A stretch of 47,944 nt of DNA, taken from assembly GCA_937868015.1 (NCBI GenBank), contig CALMLW010000256.1, positions 1 through 47,944 on the forward strand, written 5' to 3'. This document shows positions 33,811-44,306 of the stretch, piece after piece. Position numbers and translations under genes: made by a program. The notes under the pieces were generated by a model. The model worked only from the letters and a program-made list of their open reading frames with translations, searched no databases and was not told the DNA's origin. The stretch's first letter is position 1, and every line of letters starts with the position of its first letter. The DNA is from an uncultured Synergistaceae bacterium. Its GTDB lineage: Bacteria > Synergistota > Synergistia > Synergistales > Aminiphilaceae.

Positions 33811-33841
33811 CGCTCCTCCCTCTCCGGCGCCGCCACACCTT

Positions 33842-35656
33842 TCACAGCGCCACTATCCCCTTGCGCAGGGCGTATTTGGTCATATCCACCACGGTGTGAA
33901 GCCCCAGCTTGACGCCGATGCGCTCCCGGTAGGTTTCCACCGTCTTGGCGGAGATGCCCAGGGCGGCGGCGATCTCTTTGATGCTTTCTCCCTCGGCGAG
34001 GCGCCGGAGCACCTCTTCCTCTCGGACCGACAGGGCTTCCTGACCCCGGCGGCGCTGGCGCACCAGGTCCTCGGCCACCGCCGCCGCCACGGGGGCGCTG
34101 AAGGCCGCCTCCCCCGCCGCCACGGCCCGGATCGCCCGGGCCAACTCCTCCGGATCGCAGTCTTTCAGCAGATATCCCGCTCCCCCTGCGTCCAGCATTT
34201 CCCGCACCACGAAGGGGTTGGCGTGCATGGAAAGTCCTAGTATTGCCGTTTTGGGAAACTCTTCGGAAAAGCGCCGGGCAGCTTCGATGCCCCCGTGGCG
34301 CCCCATGGAGACATCCAGCAGCACCACGTCGGGGTGGCACTCCCGGGCCAGCGCCAGGGCCGCCTCTCCGTCTTCCGCCTCCCCCACCAGATCCAGGTCG
34401 GCGTAGGGCTCCAGCAGGGCCCTAACCCCCCGGCGGAAGAGGTCGTGGTCGTCCGCCAGGAGCACCCGGATGGGGGGCCTCGCCTCCTCTTTTCTCGACG
34501 CCTCTCGGGGGATGAGAAGGGGCGCCCGAAGGATCCCCGTGGTCCCTTCCCCCGGGGAGGAGTGAAGCTCGAAGCGGGCCCCCAGGTGGAAAAGGCGCTC
34601 CCGGATGCTAAAAAGGCCGAAGCCTCCGCCCTGGGGCCTTTCCTCTTCCCGGACTCCCCCTTTGCCGTCGTCGGCCACCGTGCACACCAGCTCCCTTCCC
34701 TCCCGGCGAAGCGAAAGGGTCACCCGCCGGGCCTCGGCGTGCTTCACCACGTTGTGCAGCAGCTCTCGCACCACTTGGAAGAGCAGGACTTTCACGTCCT
34801 CGGCCAGAGGCTTGGGCTGCCAGTCGTCGTGCAAGGTCCAGGCAATGCCGTGTTCGTCCAACATCTTCCCCGCCAGGGCCGACACCGCCGCCTCGAAGCC
34901 CACTTCGTAGAGCACGGGGGAGCTCACCTCCAGGGTGAGGGCCCTCACCCTGGCAATGGCCTCCTCCACCAACGCCCCGATCTCGTCGAAGGGCTTGGAG
35001 GGCAGGGCCTCCCCCGCCGTACGACGCAGGTGAGAAAATTTCATTTTTAGTAATGCCAAGGTCTGACCCACGCCATCGTGCAGATCCACGGCCACCCGCC
35101 GCCGCTCCCGTTCCTCCGCCAGCGACAGCTCCGACGCCAGGGATCGAAGGTCTTCTTGGCTGCGGCGCAGCTCTTCTTCCACCCGGCTCCGTTCGGCGAG
35201 CTCCTCCTGAAGGCGCCGGGTCCGGTCGGCCACCTGTTCCTCCAGGTGTTCCCGGTGAGCTCGATTTTCCCGCAAAAGGTCCCGGCGCTCGAAGGCCCGC
35301 TCCAGGGCGTGGGAGAGGCTTTCCCGATCTCCCAAGGGCTTGAGGAGGTAATCCCAGGCGCCGCCCCGCAGGGCCTCCACGGCGGTGCCCACCTCTTCCG
35401 CCCCGGAGACCACCAGGAGGGGGAGCTCGGGCCAAGCCGAGCTCAGCACCCCCAGGACCTCCACCCCGTCTCGGTCGGGAAGCCCCAAGTCCAGGAGCAC
35501 CAGGTCCAGGTCGGCCGACACCGCCCCCAGGGCCTCTTCTCCCTCCGAGGCCTCCCGCACCTCGTATCCCAGGTGCCGAAGCCGGGTCGCCGTGGTCTTG
35601 CGGAAGACATCGTCGTCGTCCACCAGCAGCAGTCGACGCCGATCCCCTTGGGTCAT
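33842..35656 (-). CDS. Fusion regulator: REC - NarL-type histidine kinase - REC - LuxR-type DNA-binding domain
   Basis: A 604-residue cytoplasmic protein holding a complete two-component system. In order: REC1 (8-125, phospho-acceptor Asp56 in LVLLDLGLPDRDG); a coiled coil (about 125-180); HisKA_3 dimerisation domain with His193 in VAVDLHDGVGQTLALL; HATPase_c (about 285-385, N box RELLHNVVKHAEARR, G box ADDGKGG); REC2 (397-515, Asp448 in VVLLDVSMGRHGG); and a NarL/LuxR helix-turn-helix (about 540-604, LSVREEEVLRRLAEG and GISAKTVETYRERI). The second half alone would be a standard NarL regulator. No TM helix is present. It starts inside the end of the propeller kinase gene (4-nt overlap), so the two are made together. 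A phosphate path from that kinase to REC1 or REC2 is inference. Its DNA targets are unknown. Confidence 0.92.
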   Translation of the reverse strand: MTQGDRRRLLLVDDDDVFRKTTATRLRHLGYEVREASEGEEALGAVSADLDLVLLDLGLPDRDGVEVLGVLSSAWPELPLLVVSGAEEVGTAVEALRGGAWDYLLKPLGDRESLSHALERAFERRDLLRENRAHREHLEEQVADRTRRLQEELAERSRVEEELRRSQEDLRSLASELSLAEERERRRVAVDLHDGVGQTLALLKMKFSHLRRTAGEALPSKPFDEIGALVEEAIARVRALTLEVSSPVLYEVGFEAAVSALAGKMLDEHGIAWTLHDDWQPKPLAEDVKVLLFQVVRELLHNVVKHAEARRVTLSLRREGRELVCTVADDGKGGVREEERPQGGGFGLFSIRERLFHLGARFELHSSPGEGTTGILRAPLLIPREASRKEEARPPIRVLLADDHDLFRRGVRALLEPYADLDLVGEAEDGEAALALARECHPDVVLLDVSMGRHGGIEAARRFSEEFPKTAILGLSMHANPFVVREMLDAGGAGYLLKDCDPEELARAIRAVAAGEAAFSAPVAAAVAEDLVRQRRRGQEALSVREEEVLRRLAEGESIKEIAAALGISAKTVETYRERIGVKLGLHTVVDMTKYALRKGIVAL

Positions 35657-38600
35657 CGCGTTCCCCTCCTATCCTCCAAGGCCCGCCCCAGGGCTCGCCC
35701 CTCTTCCTCACTCCGAAGGGCCAAAAGGGCCAGCCCTCGCCGGGCCCCCTCGTCGTCGCCCCGCTTCAGGGCCCCTTCCACCTCCCGAGCCAGGGCCCCG
35801 GAGCGCTCCATCCAAAAGGCCCCCAGGCTTCCCTTGAGGCGATGGATCCGGCGCAGGAGAAAGTCTCGGTCTTCTTTTCCCACTCCCGCTTCCAGGGCCC
35901 TCAAGACCCCCGGCAGGGAACCCCGGAAGTCCTCCAGCAGGCGGCGGAGCTCCCCTTCTTGCCCCTCGTAAGCTTCGAAGAGCTCCCCCCAGCTTCCGAC
36001 AACGGGATCTCGGGCCTCGAAAAAATCGCCGCCCTTGCCCCGGCGCCCCAGGGCGGCCCGCACCGCTCCCTCCAGGGCCCGCCGGGTGAGGGGTTTGGGG
36101 GCAAAGGCGTCCATGCCCGAGGCCAGGCACCGTCGCCGCTCCCCCTCCCCCGCCCCGGCGGAAAGGGCCACCAGAGGAAGGCGATCTCCCCCCGGAGCCT
36201 CCCGCAGGAGCCGGGCCACCTCGGGGCCGTCCTTGCCCGGCATCTGCACGTCTAGCAGCGCCAGGTCAAAGGGCGAACCCAGGCTCCCTTCCCCCGAAGG
36301 GGCCAGGAGGCGCCAGGCCTCCTCTCCGTCCTCCACGAAGGTGAGATCCCATTGGTAACGCCCCAAAAGGGCCTCCAGAAAGCGCCTATTGGGGGGGTTA
36401 TCCTCCGCCACCAGCACCCGGAGCCCCAGAGGAAGGGCCCGGGCCTCCCCCTCGAGCTCCGGAGAACCCTCCTTATGGGTTTTTCCTTCGCCCCCACCTT
36501 CCTCTCGGCCCAAGGAGAGAGAGAAGGAAAAAATCGACCCTCCCTCCTCCCGAGGGGCCACCTCCAGGGAGCCCTCCATGAGATCCACCAGGCGCCGGAC
36601 GATGGCGAGCCCCAGCCCCGACCCGCCGTAACGGCGGCTCGTGGACGAATCGCCCTGGCTGAAGGGTTCAAAGAGCCTACCCACCTGGTCCGGGGAAATG
36701 CCCACCCCCGAGTCTTCCACTCGACCCCGGAGCCACACCCGCCCCCCCTCCGGCTGGGCCGTCAAAAATACCGCCACATGCCCCGCGGCGGTGAACTTGA
36801 CGCTGTTATCCACCAGGTTAGTGAGGATCTGGCGCAGCCTAAAGGGGTCCCCCCGGAGGATTGGGGGCACCGAGGCGTCCACTTCCGTGCAAAAGGCCAG
36901 CCCCTTTTCCCGGGCCCGGGGCTCCAGAAGGCTCCGCACCTCCTCCAGTACCGCCGCAGGGTCAAAGGGCACTTCTTCCAGGTCCAGTCGGTCCGCTTCG
37001 GCCTTGGAGAGATCCAACAGGTCATTCAAGAGGCGAAGCAGGGACCCCGCCGCGCTCCGCACGGTGACGAGCCAGGGGCGCTGGGTGGGAGAGATCTCCC
37101 CTTCCAGCAGGAGATCGGTGAATCCCAAGATGGCGTTCATGGGGGTCCTCAGCTCGTGTCCCACGTTGGCCAGAAAAACCCCCTTGGCCCGGGAGGCGCT
37201 TTCCGCCGCATCCTTGGCCGCCACCAGGGCATCCTGGGCCAAAAGGCGCTCCTCCACCTCCATCTGGAGCATCTGGGCGCTCCGCCGCAGGGCCTCGTTT
37301 TTTTCGTGGAGCTCCCGGGTCCGGAGGGCCACCTCTTCTTCCAGGGCCCGGGCCCGTTCCCGCTGCTCCCGGAGGACCCGCTCCTCTCGGCGCACCCGGA
37401 AGGAGCCGTACCCTCCCAGGATTCCCAGGGATCCCAGGGCGTAGAGCGAGATCGCCCACCAGGAACGCCACCCCGGCACGGGGACCGTCAGGCGGATCAG
37501 GCGCTCCGGGGGGCTCTCCACTCCGTCGGCGTTGGCGGCCTTGACCCAGAGAGCATAAGATCCCGGGTCCAGGTTAGTGTAAGTCACCACGTTGCGAAAT
37601 CCCAGGGAGACCCAAGAGGTCTCGAAGCCCTCCAGCTTTACCGAAAAACGGTTCCGCTCCGGGGAAGAAAAATCCAGGGCCGCCAGGGTGAAGGTCACCG
37701 ATCGATCCCGGGGCCCCAGGGACACGGGGGCCAAAGACCCCAACGTCATGGGATCCAGAGGAGACCCTTCCACCGCCACTCCCGTGATCGCCACCCCGGG
37801 GGGCATGAGATTGCGCCGGAGCCATCCCGGCCGGATGGCGTTGAGGCCGCCGGAGCCTCCGAAGATCAGCTCTCCCTCCGATCCTCGCACGCAGGCGCCG
37901 TAGTTAAACTCCTCCCCCTGGAGCCCCTCCCGGGCCCCATAGGCCTCGAAGCGTCCCGTCTCGGGCCAGTAGCGGCAAAGCCCCCCTCGGGTGGCGATCC
38001 AGAGGGATCCCGTGTCGTCTTCCAGCATCCCCGTCACTGCGTCTTCCCCCGGGGGGCGCACCTCGGGGACCTCCACCAGCACCCCTCGGGCGCGGTCCAG
38101 GCGCCGTAACCCCCCCTCGGTGCCCACCCAGATCCGCCCCCGCCGGTCTTCCAGAAGGCAAGTAGGGGTCCCCACCGAAGGGGTGCCATGGTCCTCTCGC
38201 AGGCGCACGAAGCGATCGGTGCTACGGTCGTACCGGGCGAGCCCCGTGCCCTCCGTCCCCACCCATAGGTGAGAGAAGCGATCCTCCAAAAGGCAGGTCA
38301 CGGTGTTTCCCCCCAGGGAAAAAAGGGCATCGGGGTCGTAGCGATGGTGGGTAAAGGTCTCTTTGCGAGGATCGAAGCAATCCAACCCCTCCCCCGCCGT
38401 GCCCACCCAGAGGAGTCCTTCTCGGTCCTCCAGCAGCACCGTCACATCGGCATCCGCCAGGGAGTTCTCCCGCGAGGGGTCGTGGTAAAAGCGTCTGAAG
38501 GGGGGGTCGCGCCGCAGGGGGGCAAAAAATCCCCCCCGGTCCAGGGCCGGAAGGTAAAGGCGCTGAAGTCCTCCTCCCGCCGTTCCCACCCAGAGGAAGC

Positions 38601-39894
38601 CCCGGGAGTCCGCCAGCACCGCCCGCACGGACTCCCCCGCCAGGGAGTCGGGCCTCTGGGGGTCGGGGCGAAAGGATCGCACGGATTTCCAACTGCGGTC
38701 GATGCGGTCCAACCCCCGGTCGGTCCCCACCCACACCGCCCCCGAGGAGTCCCGGCCCAGGGCCAAGACCATGGAAGAAGCCAACCCCGAAGGGTCGCCG
38801 GGGTCGTGGGTGTACAGGGGAAAGTTCTCCGCCGCCCGGAGGTTCAGCGACGCCGCCCCTCCCCCCTCCAACCCGATCCACAGCAAGCCGGACCGGTCCA
38901 CCAACAGGCAGTTCACCGTGTTCCTTCCCAGGCTCCCCGCCCGCCCCGGGGTATGGCGAAAACCCTCGAAGCGCCCCTTTTCTCGGTCGAACCGGAAGAG
39001 CCCCCCTTCCCAGGTTCCCACCCAGACGTTGCCCCGGCCATCTCGGCACAGGGCCCGCACCGCGCCCCCACCGAGGCGTCCCGGGGCCTGGGGGTCGGGG
39101 CGATGATGAATAAAAAACTCCCCCGAAGGGTCTAAGCGATCCAGCCCCGCTCCCCCCGTGCCCACCCAAAGGGCTCCGTCCCCATCGGCACAGAGGGCGC
39201 GCACGTCGTTCCTCCCCAAGGACCGGGGATCCCCCGTCCCATGGCGGAAGAGGCGCACCTCCCCCGTGCCCCGGTCCACCAGGGCCAGCCCCTCGTCGGT
39301 GCCCACCCAGAAGCGCCCCCGGACGTCCTCGCACAGGGCCCGCACCGGCGCCGAGGGCAATCCCAGGGCGTCCTTTCCCGGGCGGGGAAAGGGTTCAAAA
39401 ACTCCGTGGACCCGGTCGTACCGGGCCAACCCCCCTTCCGTGCCCACCCAAAGCACCCCCCGGGCGTCCACCAGCAGGGAAAAGACCTTGTCCCCCCCTA
39501 GCCCCCCCGGGAGTCCCCGGCCAAAGACTGTGAGCTCTCCCGAGGCCTGATGGCGGCGCACCAGCCCGTCGCCCCCCGTGCCCACCCATAGATATCCCTC
39601 GCCGTCCTCCGCCAGGGCCCGGATCATCCTCCGCCGGGGCTCTCCCGGGCGCTCCAAGGGGACGGAAAGGGTCTCCCGACCGTCGTAGCGACAGAGCCCT
39701 CCCCGGGTGCCGATCCAGAGAAAACCCGTCCGGTCCTGGAGCAGGGCCTGCACCACCCCCGAAGGGAGGCCCTGCCCCACTCCCAGGTGGTCGAAGCGAA
39801 AGACCCGAGCCAAGGCCAGGGCCCCATCGGCGCCCCCCATCAGGGCTCCCCACAGCACCACGACCAGGAAAAGCCATCGCCGCAGGCTTTCCAT
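35653..39894 (-). CDS. Propeller-type hybrid sensor kinase (Reg_prop - Y_Y_Y - TM - HisKA - HATPase - REC - Hpt)
   Basis: A 1413-residue membrane sensor. After an N-terminal export helix come 14 Reg_prop repeats of the LWVGTxGGLxRYDR type, enough for two seven-bladed propellers, then a Y_Y_Y domain (LEGFETSWVSLG, PGSYALWVKAANADG) and a TM helix near residue 795. The cytoplasmic half has a coiled coil, HisKA (FLANVGHELRTPMNAILGF), HATPase (NLVDNSVKF, DSGVGIS, YGGSGLGLAIVRR), REC (LDVQMPGKDG, phosphorylated Asp) and an Hpt domain (IHRLKGSLGAF). The ATG at 39894 has GGAGGAG close upstream; a GTG at 39921 overlaps the previous gene. Such sensors are best known in Bacteroidota, where the propellers bind carbohydrates. 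The ligand here is unknown. The gene lies 10 nt after the exported-protein gene and overlaps the fusion regulator by 4 nt. Confidence 0.94.
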   Translation of the reverse strand: MESLRRWLFLVVVLWGALMGGADGALALARVFRFDHLGVGQGLPSGVVQALLQDRTGFLWIGTRGGLCRYDGRETLSVPLERPGEPRRRMIRALAEDGEGYLWVGTGGDGLVRRHQASGELTVFGRGLPGGLGGDKVFSLLVDARGVLWVGTEGGLARYDRVHGVFEPFPRPGKDALGLPSAPVRALCEDVRGRFWVGTDEGLALVDRGTGEVRLFRHGTGDPRSLGRNDVRALCADGDGALWVGTGGAGLDRLDPSGEFFIHHRPDPQAPGRLGGGAVRALCRDGRGNVWVGTWEGGLFRFDREKGRFEGFRHTPGRAGSLGRNTVNCLLVDRSGLLWIGLEGGGAASLNLRAAENFPLYTHDPGDPSGLASSMVLALGRDSSGAVWVGTDRGLDRIDRSWKSVRSFRPDPQRPDSLAGESVRAVLADSRGFLWVGTAGGGLQRLYLPALDRGGFFAPLRRDPPFRRFYHDPSRENSLADADVTVLLEDREGLLWVGTAGEGLDCFDPRKETFTHHRYDPDALFSLGGNTVTCLLEDRFSHLWVGTEGTGLARYDRSTDRFVRLREDHGTPSVGTPTCLLEDRRGRIWVGTEGGLRRLDRARGVLVEVPEVRPPGEDAVTGMLEDDTGSLWIATRGGLCRYWPETGRFEAYGAREGLQGEEFNYGACVRGSEGELIFGGSGGLNAIRPGWLRRNLMPPGVAITGVAVEGSPLDPMTLGSLAPVSLGPRDRSVTFTLAALDFSSPERNRFSVKLEGFETSWVSLGFRNVVTYTNLDPGSYALWVKAANADGVESPPERLIRLTVPVPGWRSWWAISLYALGSLGILGGYGSFRVRREERVLREQRERARALEEEVALRTRELHEKNEALRRSAQMLQMEVEERLLAQDALVAAKDAAESASRAKGVFLANVGHELRTPMNAILGFTDLLLEGEISPTQRPWLVTVRSAAGSLLRLLNDLLDLSKAEADRLDLEEVPFDPAAVLEEVRSLLEPRAREKGLAFCTEVDASVPPILRGDPFRLRQILTNLVDNSVKFTAAGHVAVFLTAQPEGGRVWLRGRVEDSGVGISPDQVGRLFEPFSQGDSSTSRRYGGSGLGLAIVRRLVDLMEGSLEVAPREEGGSIFSFSLSLGREEGGGEGKTHKEGSPELEGEARALPLGLRVLVAEDNPPNRRFLEALLGRYQWDLTFVEDGEEAWRLLAPSGEGSLGSPFDLALLDVQMPGKDGPEVARLLREAPGGDRLPLVALSAGAGEGERRRCLASGMDAFAPKPLTRRALEGAVRAALGRRGKGGDFFEARDPVVGSWGELFEAYEGQEGELRRLLEDFRGSLPGVLRALEAGVGKEDRDFLLRRIHRLKGSLGAFWMERSGALAREVEGALKRGDDEGARRGLALLALRSEEEGRALGRALEDRRGTR

Positions 39895-39904
39895 TCTCCT
39901 CCGG

Positions 39905-40492
39905 TCAGGGTGCCCCGTCACGGCTTTCCCCCTCTCTGGGGCGAGGCCAAGCCATCATGGCTACGAAGCGGCGCTCCCACGCCGTCCGCCCCCTATCCTC
40001 CCCCTCCAGCAGGGCCCGCCAAGGGCGCTCGTCCAGCGTCGCCAGCAGGGGGCCCCTAGAAGGAGACTCCGCCAAATCAGGGGAGAGCACCAGGAAAAAC
40101 GCCGCCTGCCCCGAAGAGCCATCCTCTCCCGTCAAGAGCCATCGATGGCCGTCCGCCACCACCGAGACGAAGCCCTGGCGCTGGAGGAGCTCCACCAGGG
40201 ATACCGCCGAGACCCCTCCGGGGCGGTAGCGCTGGGCAGCGACGCACACCATGTCCCCGGAGGAAAAATCCACGAATCCCAGGTCGATCTCCCGAGAGCC
40301 AGAGACGACGTAGACCCAAGTCCTTCCCGCCACCGCATCGGGAGATCCCAGGAGGTAGCGCACCAAGGCCCGGGAAAGGCCCAACCCCAAGTCGGGGCCA
40401 TCCCAGCGGCCGATGTCCACCCCCCAGGCCGGGATAGCGAGGATCAGCACCACCCCCAGGATCCACGGTCCCAGCCCCCTTCCCTTCGCCAC
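39905..40492 (-). CDS. Uncharacterised exported protein heading the signalling operon
   Basis: This is a 195-residue protein that I do not recognise. The GTG at 40492 has AAAGAG just before it and gives a clear signal peptide (GPWILGVVLILAIPAWG, cleavage near AWG-VD). Upstream in-frame codons are Arg/Gly/Pro-rich and look noncoding. The mature part is soluble and mixed alpha/beta, with WVYVVSGSREIDLGFVDFSS, VSLVELLQRQGFVSVVADGH and FVAMMAWPRP as landmarks; no Cys pair, repeats or metal motif stand out. It ends 10 nt before the propeller kinase. The placement suggests a periplasmic partner of that sensor, such as a ligand-binding or inhibitory subunit. The gene call rests on signal peptide, operon spacing and codon composition. 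Confidence 0.75.
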   Translation of the reverse strand: MAKGRGLGPWILGVVLILAIPAWGVDIGRWDGPDLGLGLSRALVRYLLGSPDAVAGRTWVYVVSGSREIDLGFVDFSSGDMVCVAAQRYRPGGVSAVSLVELLQRQGFVSVVADGHRWLLTGEDGSSGQAAFFLVLSPDLAESPSRGPLLATLDERPWRALLEGEDRGRTAWERRFVAMMAWPRPREGESRDGAP

Positions 40493-40990
40493 CTCTTTCC
40501 CCCCCTCTTTCCCGAGACATCCCGGCCCCTGCCCCGTGGGCCCAGGACCATTGTTCGCCGTTCGCAAGCCCCTGGACGTCCCTTTTTCCCCTTCGCTCCA
40601 TTGTAGGACCGGGGGAAGGGAATGGCAAGAAAAGCCCCTCGCGTCCTTCGGTCCCTCCCCCCGGCGCCCCGGGAACCAGATCCACAAAGGGGCCGGAGAA
40701 ACGGTCTTCGGGAGGCATCGCCGAGGTCCCCAGGGCCCATCCCTCGATGAGAAGCCTCTGCTCCCGGGAGGATCCTTCGATCCGAGGGCCTCCATGGGGC
40801 TTTGGCTTTCAAAGAGCTCCTCCTTCGGAGGGGGACATCGGGGGGCCTTTAAGCTATACCTTTTCCAGAAAGATTCCCCGAGAAATGATCCCCCTGGTGG
40901 GGAGCGACGGCCCCGCCCCAAGCGCCCCTCCCCGGGAATGGTCGAAGCACCCCCAGGAGATCCAAGGGGACGAAAGGAGTTTGATCTATC
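40493..40990. other. Divergent intergenic region without a supported gene
   Basis: About 500 nt between the divergent starts of the signalling operon and rarD, so the promoters for both should lie here. Open frames on both strands look like random GC-rich sequence. One small hairpin (CTCCTCC, TTC, GGAGGGG near 40817-40833) is visible. I find no convincing -35/-10 pair. Confidence 0.5.
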
Positions 40991-41917
40991 GTGTCGACGC
41001 AACGCGCCTCCGAATTTCAAGCGGGATTTTGGGCCACCCTGGGGGCCTTCCTCCTATGGGGAGCCCTCCCCGTCTACTGGAAGGCCCTGGAAGAGGTTCC
41101 CCCTTTGGAGATCTTGTGCCACCGGATCCTGTGGTCCATGCTGGTGCTCCTGATCATGCTCTCGGCCACCCGCCGGTGGGGCGAGGTATGGAGCGCCCTC
41201 TCCCGGCGCTCCGTCGCCCTGGGGCTCGCCGTCAGCGGCACCCTCATCGGCGTCAACTGGCTCGCCTACATCTGGGCCGTGAACACGGGGAGGATCCTGG
41301 AGTCAAGCCTGGGGTACTTCATCACTCCCCTGGTGAACGTCCTCTTTGGCATGATTTTTTTTCATGAACGCCTTCGCCCCTATCAGTGGGCCGCCGTGGC
41401 CCTCGCCGCCCTGGGGGTGGGATACCAGCTCGTCCTCCACGGCTCCTTGCCCTGGGTCTCTCTTTTCCTCGCCGTGACCTTCGGGTCCTATGGATTGATG
41501 AGAAAAAAGCTCCCCGTGGGTTCCATCCCGGGACTTTTCGTAGAAACCCTCCTGCTATCCGCCCCCGCCCTGGCGTACCTGGGCTTTCTTGCCCTTCAGG
41601 GGCAGCAGTGCTTCGGCGCGGGGTCCCTCTTTCGAGACGCCCTTCTGTCCGGATCCGGCATCATCACCTCGGTGCCCCTGCTCCTTTTCGCCTTCGGCGC
41701 CGCCCGCATTCCCTTGGTTACGGTGGGACTCCTCCAGTATGTCGCCCCGTCCCTTTCCTTCGCCCTGGGCGTATTAGCCTACGGCGAGACCTTCGACTTC
41801 ACCCGGGGAGTGACCTTCGGCGCCATCTGGATAGGACTGGGGCTTTACACCCTGGATTCATTCCTCCTGAGCCGACGTTCCTCCCCGGAGGCTTCCTCCC
41901 TACGACGGGAGGCCTAG
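40991..41917 (+). CDS. rarD: RarD protein (EamA/DMT superfamily transporter)
   Basis: A 308-residue, ten-helix membrane transporter. The start has RarD hallmarks: GFWATLGAFLLWGALPVYWK and EILCHRILWSMLVLL, then LIGVNWLAYIWAVNTGRILE and SLGYFITPLVNVLFGMIFF; the C-terminal half has SYGLMRKKLPVGSIPGLFVE and LQYVAPSLSFALGVLAYGE. Length is normal. The GTG at 40991 follows AAAGGAG at a long spacing (11 nt). It stands alone, divergent from the signalling operon and convergent with a chemoreceptor gene. RarD proteins were named for chloramphenicol sensitivity; the real substrate is not known. Confidence 0.92.
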   Translation: MSTQRASEFQAGFWATLGAFLLWGALPVYWKALEEVPPLEILCHRILWSMLVLLIMLSATRRWGEVWSALSRRSVALGLAVSGTLIGVNWLAYIWAVNTGRILESSLGYFITPLVNVLFGMIFFHERLRPYQWAAVALAALGVGYQLVLHGSLPWVSLFLAVTFGSYGLMRKKLPVGSIPGLFVETLLLSAPALAYLGFLALQGQQCFGAGSLFRDALLSGSGIITSVPLLLFAFGAARIPLVTVGLLQYVAPSLSFALGVLAYGETFDFTRGVTFGAIWIGLGLYTLDSFLLSRRSSPEASSLRREA

Positions 41918-42039: not shown

Positions 42040-44175
42040 TTATTCCTCCAACGCCCGAACCTCCGAGGCATCGTCCAGCACGTATCCTGCCAGGGCCCGG
42101 CCCAGATCTTCCAGGACATCGCCCTGTTGACGCCGGATCTCTTCCAGATGATCCATCTGCCCCGCCACCTGGCGAGACACCTGCTCCACCCGGGATGCGG
42201 CGCGCTGCCCCTCCCCCGCTTGGCGATGGATCATGTCCATGGCGTTTTCCACCGCTTCGTTGCCAGCGAGCTGGTTTTGGGTCACGGCGGCGATGGATCG
42301 AATACCTTCGGCAATGGCCGACACGTGGGCCACGATCTCCCCAATGCGTTCGGCGGTCTCCTGGGAGTCTTTCTCCGTCCCGGCGATGAGCTCCGTGACG
42401 CGCTCCGTGTCCCTCACCGTCTCGTCCGTCCGGGCCCTAATCTCCTCGATGACGCTCTGAATCTGGCGAGAAGCCCCATTGGAGTCCTCCGCCAACTTGC
42501 GCACCTCCTCGGCCACCACGGCAAAGCCCCGCCCCGCCTCTCCGGCCCGGGCGGCTTCGATGGCGGCGTTCAGCGCCAAAAGATTTGTCTGGTCCGCAAT
42601 GCCCTGGATGGTGGCCACAAACCGGGAAATGCTCTCCACGGAGCTCTCCAAAGCCCCCAGGGCATCCCGCACCCGGACGCTGGCCCCCCCCGCCTCGCGG
42701 ATGCCCACCGCCACCGCCCGCACTGCCTCCCCATTTGCGGACGTCTCCCGGGCCACTTCTTCCGACTCCCGGGATAGGCCCGCCACGAGGCTCGAAGCCT
42801 CCCGGGAGGCCTGGGTGACGGAGGTCACCCGGGATTTTGTCCCATCGGCCCCCTGGACCACTCTCTCCACGGTGCGCACCATGTCCTGGGCGGCCCCCAG
42901 GGCCTCTCGAAGGGATGCCACCACCTCGCCATTGATGTGCTCCATGGCGTCTCCCCGTTCCTGGAATAGCTCTTGCAACCCCTGCATCTGACTCACCAAG
43001 TCCCGATAGGCCGTACCTATACGCGCGAAGGCCGAAAGGACGACGCAGATCTCGTTGCGGCTCCCTTCGTCCTCGTCGGCACAGGTGCTAACCCTAAGGT
43101 CCCCGATGGCGACGCGGTGGGCCGTCTCCACCACGTTCCGCAGGGGGGCCAGAAGGCGTCCCACCAGGAAGGTCACCAGGGCCAATCCGGCTCCCAGGGA
43201 GAGGAGGCCCCAGATGAGCATCCGCTCTCGCATGGCCACCAGGGGGGCGGTGATCACCGACGAAGGAATGGTCACCGCCACGGTCCACTCCGGAGAATCC
43301 GTCCGGAAGACAAACACCTGGCGCGCGGCCTTGCCCTCGCCCTCGGAGAAAGATTCCACCTCCCCCGGAGCTATTTTGGCCCTCCAGGGCTCCAGGGCCG
43401 CCCACAGGGAAGAAGACCCCTCTGGGGAGGCTCCCTTTCCCAGCTCTCGCCCGTGGGCGTCGAAGACCCGGACCTCGCTTCCCTCGCCGATGTGCGACTC
43501 CCGGAGGAATTGCAGCAAAGGCGTCAACGAAACCCCCGCGAAGACCACGACGTGCTCCTCCGGCGTCTTGCCCTTCACCGAACGATACCCCCCAAAAAAG
43601 GGCTCTCCGTGGATCTCCGTCGGGCCAAAAAAGCTCTCCCCCCGGGCCAGCGCCGGCGTGGCGGGGCTATCATCTTCCAAGGGCGTACCGATCAGGGACT
43701 GCCCCGAGGCATCCTTGATCGACGTGGAAACGCGCACCAACGCGACGGCGCCGTCCGCCGAGGCGGGCTGCAACAGGGAGAAACACCCCCCCATGCGGGC
43801 TGCCCATTCCTCGGGAAGGGCGTTGTTTCCTGTGATCTTTACGAGGTTGCCCGTGGAAAGGGAAAGGGGGGTGAGCACCCACTTACCCATCGTCACGGTG
43901 AACCGGCTGGGCATGAGGCGCCCCCCCGCCACGGTCCCCGCACTCACGTCGAGGTTCGTGGCACAGGCCGTGCGAAGGAGCTTCAAGGTGTTCTCCGTGG
44001 CGTGGGCCAGGCTGGTGACGGCCCCTTGACCCTGGGTGACGGAGCTCTCCAGGAGCCGATCCCGGGCCGTGAGATAGCTCCCCCAAAAAGACACCGCCAG
44101 AGCTCCCACCACAATAACCGCCGTGCCCCCCATGATCTGGGTCCTGAGGGAACACCTCTTGATGAAACACCGCAT
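42040..44175 (-). CDS. Methyl-accepting chemotaxis protein with Cache periplasmic sensor
   Basis: A 711-residue membrane chemoreceptor. TM1 (about 14-36) and TM2 (about 320-342) bracket a periplasmic sensor of about 280 residues. Its [20 protein letters not shown] and [15 protein letters not shown] stretches resemble Cache_3-Cache_2 fusion domains. A HAMP domain follows ([20 protein letters not shown]), then the signalling helices with the invariant hairpin tip [20 protein letters not shown] and [20 protein letters not shown]. The C-terminus lacks a CheR/CheB-tethering pentapeptide. The ATG at 44175 has GGGTGGAG just upstream; an earlier frame adds 27 residues without a ribosome site. Cache domains sense small molecules such as amino acids and organic acids. 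No other chemotaxis genes are nearby, so this is an orphan receptor. Confidence 0.93.
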
Positions 44176-44306
44176 GGCTCCACCCCCCGAACAATTTACT
44201 ACAGGACATCCCCCCCCAGGGTACAGAAAAAGTTCTGGAAAGGCAATGTAAAGCAAGGTAAAGAGGAACCTCCTCGGCGTTTCTGCTCTGGTTCATCGAA
44301 GGGATT

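Follow-up and report, generated by a model that had tools for sequence, protein, structure and literature searches.

Several described systems resemble parts of the locus reported here. In Leptospira, a hybrid kinase (LvrA) and a kinase with an N-terminal receiver (REC) domain (LvrB) are encoded in one operon, and LvrA phosphorylates the receiver aspartate of its operon partner, which demonstrates transfer from a hybrid kinase to a Rec-kinase (PMC5863495, PMC13269768). The structures of LvrB, in which REC and DHp are connected by a long helix, revealed that receiver phosphorylation activates the kinase allosterically by inducing a coiled coil and freeing the catalytic domains (PMC13269768). 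LvrA senses through a PAS domain, with no propeller reported, and LvrB is devoid of a second receiver or DNA-binding domain, the output LvrC being a separate protein (PMC5863495, PMC13269768). ExsG, a REC-HWE kinase of Rhizobium NT-26, likewise has an N-terminal receiver that is phosphorylated by another kinase and controls the attached one; here receiver phosphorylation is inhibitory, the kinase leaves its own receiver unphosphorylated and its partner is a separate receiver (PMC3899027). In TodS/TodT a receiver feeds a second transmitter, and in TodS this receiver lies between two transmitters of the same chain (PMC4321377). On the sensor side, the Bacteroidota HTCS (PDB 4a2l, 3v9f and 3ott) combine a double seven-bladed propeller and Y_Y_Y domain with a hybrid kinase and an AraC-type HTH in the same chain. 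Hybrid kinases ending in REC-Hpt (HKRRHPt) commonly adjoin a response regulator gene, as in all six Synergistetes cases of a 2015 survey, which also counted about 2,000 proteins that combine a single kinase with two receivers (HKRR1RR2), domain order disregarded (PMC4558063).

The window analyzed here is a whole contig of 47,944 nucleotides from an uncultured Synergistaceae bacterium, whose genome is estimated to be 84% complete. Its minus strand carries three ORFs, denoted A, B and C, in a cluster that is known from this one draft genome. The features are as follows.

40600..40628, minus strand: candidate sigma-70 promoter TTGCCA-17-TACAAT upstream of gene A; weak (1 found against 0.4 expected by chance)
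39905..40492, minus strand: gene A, exported protein of an unnamed family, 195 aa; GTG start; faint BamE-like N-terminal half
35653..39894, minus strand: gene B, propeller hybrid histidine kinase, 1413 aa; alternative GTG start at 39921
37795..39771, minus strand: B, 14 Reg_prop blades (14 motifs counted; PF07494, E=4.7e-66), two seven-bladed propellers expected
37483..37674, minus strand: B, Y_Y_Y domain (PF07495, E=2.3e-11)
37396..37458, minus strand: B, likely single membrane segment after Y_Y_Y (by hydropathy only, 1.24 over 19 residues)
36994..37185, minus strand: B, HisKA with H913 (Pfam and motif)
36511..36852, minus strand: B, HATPase_c (Pfam)
36061..36417, minus strand: B, receiver domain with D1215, S1245 and K1267 (Pfam and motif)
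35722..35943, minus strand: B, Hpt with H1351 in IHRLKGS (PF01627, E=6.5e-9)
33842..35656, minus strand: gene C, REC-HisKA_3-HATPase-REC-GerE fusion, 604 aa (Pfam; AlphaFold2 model, mean pLDDT 85.8)
35303..35635, minus strand: C, REC1 with D56, S84 and K106 (Pfam and motif)
35006..35326, minus strand: C, single predicted helix, residues 111-217, from REC1 alpha5 into the H193-bearing DHp helix (AlphaFold2 model)
34928..35107, minus strand: C, HisKA_3 with H193 in LHDGVGQ (Pfam and motif)
34517..34789, minus strand: C, HATPase_c (Pfam)
34469..34516, minus strand: C, fusion linker, residues 381-396; ATG, GTG and TTG absent in frame; low pLDDT at 383-388
34127..34465, minus strand: C, REC2 with D448, S476 and K498 (Pfam and motif)
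33869..34036, minus strand: C, GerE (LuxR/NarL-type) DNA-binding domain (PF00196, E=1.7e-15; LiaR/VraR/NarL by fold)

The initial annotation had described this region as a three-gene operon made up of an exported protein of unknown family, a 14-repeat propeller hybrid kinase with REC and Hpt, and the fusion protein C. The ORF calls place and space the three genes as described, with the 10-nt gap between A and B depending on the ATG of B at 39894; the alternative GTG at 39921 has a better-spaced Shine-Dalgarno sequence and would instead create a 17-nt overlap between the two genes. The end of B and the start of C share 4 nt (ATGA), and C is served by a strong Shine-Dalgarno sequence of its own. 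The description of B was borne out, as all its Pfam domains were found and the 14 motifs can be counted, and the phospho-sites named for B (H913, D1215, H1351) and C (D56, H193, D448) are all present. As an operon, the co-directional and tightly spaced genes A, B and C represent a minimum size, because the run continues past C in the same direction into miaB (31 nt away), comEA and comEC; no terminator-like site was found in the 31 nt between the end of C and miaB (33811-33841). The cluster may drive expression of miaB-comEA-comEC. Upstream of the cluster, a search for an RNA family or a clear operator found neither. A rarD-like EamA transporter gene (40991-41917) diverges from gene A and adjoins the gene for a methyl-accepting chemotaxis-type protein (window positions 42040-44256).

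Gene A agrees with its earlier description as an exported protein of unknown family: a signal peptide is recognizable by inspection, and no Pfam entry matched above its cut-off. The GTG start matches the starts of homologues, and R41, G49, P51 and G92 are invariant in the family. The best Pfam match, BamE (PF04355), reached E=0.056 and 13.7 bits against a cut-off of 23.2, and just one of eight family members matches BamE at all; we therefore rejected this assignment. Profile matches to the PDB at E-values of 0.3-0.5 were nearly all to one protein family repeated, and a single-sequence structure prediction (pLDDT 35) was of no use. Counting the source genome itself, the family occurs in nine of 183 genomes of the order by sequence search and in 12 by profile. 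In nine other neighbourhoods that were read, neither a sensor kinase nor a response regulator lies beside a gene A homologue. Instead, a umuC (UmuC-like polymerase) gene is the neighbour in three of four neighbourhoods of family f10 (L042, L043, L044), a LemA-like gene, named by sequence only, in family f4, and other genes, none of them a kinase or response regulator, in families f3 and f6. Gene A was therefore rejected as a conserved system component. Gene A may be an exported accessory protein recruited in this lineage, possibly a sensor modulator; its membership of a conserved exported family and its position beside the gene for a periplasmic sensor point to such a role, nothing more.

The cluster as a whole looks lineage-specific from gene order, because none of its three genes lies upstream of miaB in the three other genomes of the family examined, in which miaB and its comEA and/or comEC neighbours are conserved. 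The proposal of a three-gene system, when checked for co-occurrence across relatives, thus found no support.

The Pfam matches to the domains of B and C, with E-values ranging from about 1e-66 to 1e-8, lie well outside what chance would give. Eleven Reg_prop stretches of B pass Pfam individually, fourteen motifs being found by direct count, and the sensor matches the three Bacteroides HTCS sensors of known structure by sequence. HisKA, HATPase, REC and Hpt follow one another in the order of a tripartite hybrid kinase, each of the three phospho-residues being in place. B shares the double propeller, Y_Y_Y domain and hybrid kinase of the HTCS; however, it ends in Hpt and is not an HTCS, because it has no HTH.

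Propeller proteins occur in 27 of the 183 genomes of the order and are of three kinds. In the first, a propeller-Y_Y_Y-HisKA_3 kinase is followed by a separate NarL-type gene (L083, L084, L085, L091, L097); these pairs, from five genomes of two families, adjoin a transporter-like gene, and most of them an epimerase-like gene as well. The second comprises hybrids with HisKA-HATPase-REC, in which Hpt scores above the Pfam cut-off in L090 and more weakly in L089, L092 and L094. They share the domain series of B but are longer (1518-1687 aa), and in L090 and L094 the hybrid gene overlaps its partner by 4 nt, as B does; in contrast to C, that partner is a REC-HD_5 protein (HD-GYP type) and not a DNA-binding Rec-kinase. 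The two loci (L090:2498-8178 and L094:2207-8385) represent a possible propeller-to-c-di-GMP pathway, and L090 shows an additional overlap with a PnrA-like substrate-binding protein gene. The third kind is a double-propeller Y_Y_Y sensor fused to GGDEF, a propeller diguanylate cyclase found in a sister genus of the same family as the window (L088:5624-8752, genome G001). No full-length counterpart of B was found among the 183 order genomes, where alignment was limited to the kinase part. Judged by its domains, B is nevertheless ordinary for the order, where propeller hybrids that end in REC-Hpt and have a separate output protein already exist.

The unusual element of the locus is C. Its domains match those of NarX/NarL- or LiaS/LiaR-type separate pairs, but they lie in a single ORF whose junction lacks a start codon, and assignment to such a pair was rejected. 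Residues 375-397 contain no stop and no ATG, GTG or TTG in frame; the two halves share one reading frame, and codon-position GC stays steady across them. The linker retains an SD-like AAAGAGGAGG before ATC CGG GTG, where the start of a regulator would be expected. The simple reading of this sequence is that C arose by loss of the stop and start of an adjacent gene pair. The remnant would also suit two genes joined by a sequencing or assembly error, or by a mutation that arose very recently in this draft genome, and the fusion was seen in no other genome searched; yet a single sequencing error would not be enough, because the linker has neither stop nor start codon and the halves share their frame and codon-position GC. 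We consider such an artefact or private mutation highly improbable.

Searches for C covered about 1,180 genomes, with the top few candidates per genome scored under strict E-value cut-offs. None of the 183 order genomes contained a full-length counterpart at E<=1e-60; matches at this level begin at residues 146-161 (248 in one contig-end fragment), and six of the seven cross a stop and correspond to a kinase and a regulator as two genes. None of the 69 loci returned by a GTDB scan has REC-HisKA_3-HATPase-REC-GerE as one ORF, and no record of the plasmid set covers 80% of C. In phylum samples of 198 genomes (Nitrospira's phylum), 400 genomes (for the Chloroflexi locus; a Chloroflexota search run without a positive control) and 392 genomes (for the Planctomycetota locus), we found two-gene pairs alone or nothing over E=1e-80. 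An apparent second fusion (L077, genome G033) cannot be counted, because its contig contains N bases and is frameshifted close to the HTH.

The closest pair found, from the Planctomycetota sample (L220, genome G895), is 49% identical to C over residues 152-604. It consists of a REC-PAS-HisKA_3-HATPase kinase and a NarL-type regulator encoded 6 nt downstream, in effect an unfused C with the domains in matching order; it differs from C in being two genes and in having a PAS domain between REC and kinase, and its short contig shows no propeller kinase. Among Rec-kinases that end in a further receiver, the nearest, a REC-PAS-HisKA_3-HATPase-REC protein of Nitrospira moscoviensis (L152), is encoded downstream of a giant hybrid kinase of 2099 aa; unlike C it has no HTH after the last receiver, and a propeller was not found. 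Elsewhere in N. moscoviensis, five consecutive HisKA_3 kinases lie within 13 kb (L180:1-12919), most of them bearing receivers at one or both ends. The REC-kinase-REC-HTH order with a HisKA_3 core in one chain is thus so far unmatched among the top hits searched, as judged by domain content, while the component parts of B and C are all of known kinds. The claim that no described system has this layout holds, within these searches, for the fusion of a Rec-kinase to its own NarL-type regulator. It does not hold for the arrangement at large, since lvrAB has been described (PMC5863495) and the order itself contains propeller-REC-Hpt hybrids whose output protein is separate.

C has the make-up of a Rec-controlled kinase, namely an N-terminal REC with a complete acceptor site (D56, S84, K106) joined to DHp-CA. 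Kinase relatives of C carry PAS, GAF or Cache-HAMP where C carries REC1, which places REC1 in the input position. A fold search returned LiaR, VraR, NarL and RcsB for the C-terminal half, as well as DesK and the Rec-kinase LvrB. In the AlphaFold2 model of the monomer, computed from 40 sequences, a continuous helix of residues 111-217 starts at REC1 alpha5 and includes H193; the pTM of 0.46 makes the placement between the halves unreliable, with linker residues 383-388 among the least certain parts. The heptads of this helix are only moderate, with 39% LIVM at positions a and d, a point against the two-stage reading given below. Because a single predicted helix contains H193, D56 and H193 would be held apart by a long rod. 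Phosphorylated REC1 thus more likely gates the second kinase than donates phosphate to it, as suggested by the modelled anatomy and by analogy to LvrB and ExsG. This argues against the complete periplasm-to-promoter phosphorelay that the initial annotation had proposed, given a receiver in the input-domain slot and a continuous predicted helix to H193.

B and C very likely form one pathway; the genes are adjacent and overlapping, their phospho-sites are intact, and a signal path from B to C, as proposed earlier, is the natural reading. For its course we favour, at somewhat better than even chances, a cascade of two kinase stages, the second driven by ATP, over one phosphate passed through six steps. 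The periplasmic double propeller and Y_Y_Y domain of B would bind a ligand, probably an oligosaccharide or another small envelope-side molecule, and binding would drive the cytoplasmic relay H913 to D1215 to H1351. By analogy to LvrA/LvrB, the Hpt would then pass phosphate to D56 of REC1, whose phosphorylation state would travel along helix 111-217 and either activate the HisKA_3 kinase, following the example of LvrB, or inhibit it, following that of ExsG. The kinase would autophosphorylate H193 with its own ATP. As the ancestry of the kinase-regulator pair suggests, transfer from H193 to D448 of REC2 would occur in cis, with the short flexible linker acting as a tether, and the phosphorylated REC2 would enable the NarL-type HTH to bind its putative target promoters. 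We prefer this cascade because of the input position of REC1, the helix 111-217 and the precedents of LvrB activation and ExsG inhibition.

A linear relay H913-D1215-H1351-D56-H193-D448, in which one phosphate reaches the fused DNA-binding domain and the second transmitter serves as a phosphotransfer domain, could draw on six phospho-residues that are all present across B and C, and on receivers that feed a second transmitter in TodS/TodT (PMC4321377) and the Myxococcus Red pathway (PMC3018481). Those receivers are, however, placed differently from REC1, which lies N-terminal to DHp; a TodS/TodT-type TRTR relay was rejected for B/C, as an Hpt intervenes and REC1 is the N-terminal input domain of a second protein. 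Contact between D56 and H193 in cis also looks hard to achieve, because 87 residues, in a predicted continuous helix, separate K106 from H193. The studied N-terminal REC-kinases LvrB and ExsG are gated, not relayed, and a HisKA_3 kinase with intact ATP-binding motifs needs no donated phosphate, which makes the linear relay rather improbable.

The Hpt of B might instead bypass REC1. In tripartite hybrids, transfer from Hpt to a NarL-type receiver is the classical pairing. BvgS/BvgA and EvgS/EvgA are named examples (PMC4321377). Because tripartite Hpt domains often feed NarL-type receivers directly, that of B might act on REC2 as in BvgS, EvgS and BarA, while the REC1-kinase would respond to a second input from the cytoplasm and tune REC2 by kinase or phosphatase activity. 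The HDxxxQ motif in the HisKA_3 domain of C suggests a phosphatase activity. The ancestry of REC2, however, lies in a kinase-regulator pair whose HisKA_3 kinase is its natural partner, and the complete, apparently functional acceptor site of REC1 would have no donor; we regard this branch as unlikely. B and C could also be neighbours without partnership, C answering another kinase or acetyl phosphate and the Hpt of B serving a regulator encoded elsewhere. Co-inheritance cannot be demonstrated, because the pair is not conserved in relatives; yet the ATGA overlap and common direction of the two genes, and the frequent adjacency of HKRRHPt and response regulator genes (PMC4558063), make independence quite improbable.

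Taken together, hybrids of the B type and Rec-controlled kinases are already known, and the element unmatched in the searches is a Rec-kinase fused to its own NarL-type regulator. B exemplifies a propeller sensor with an output other than the AraC domain that such sensors usually carry in the same chain. Should REC1 gate the kinase as the two-stage cascade predicts, C would take in phosphate as a signal and, within one chain, use ATP to phosphorylate the transcription factor that it carries. Rec-controlled kinases raise the question whether a signal is amplified, delayed or insulated when kinases are stacked, which is difficult to address for a kinase of unknown output partner; C would then provide a compact system in which it could be measured.
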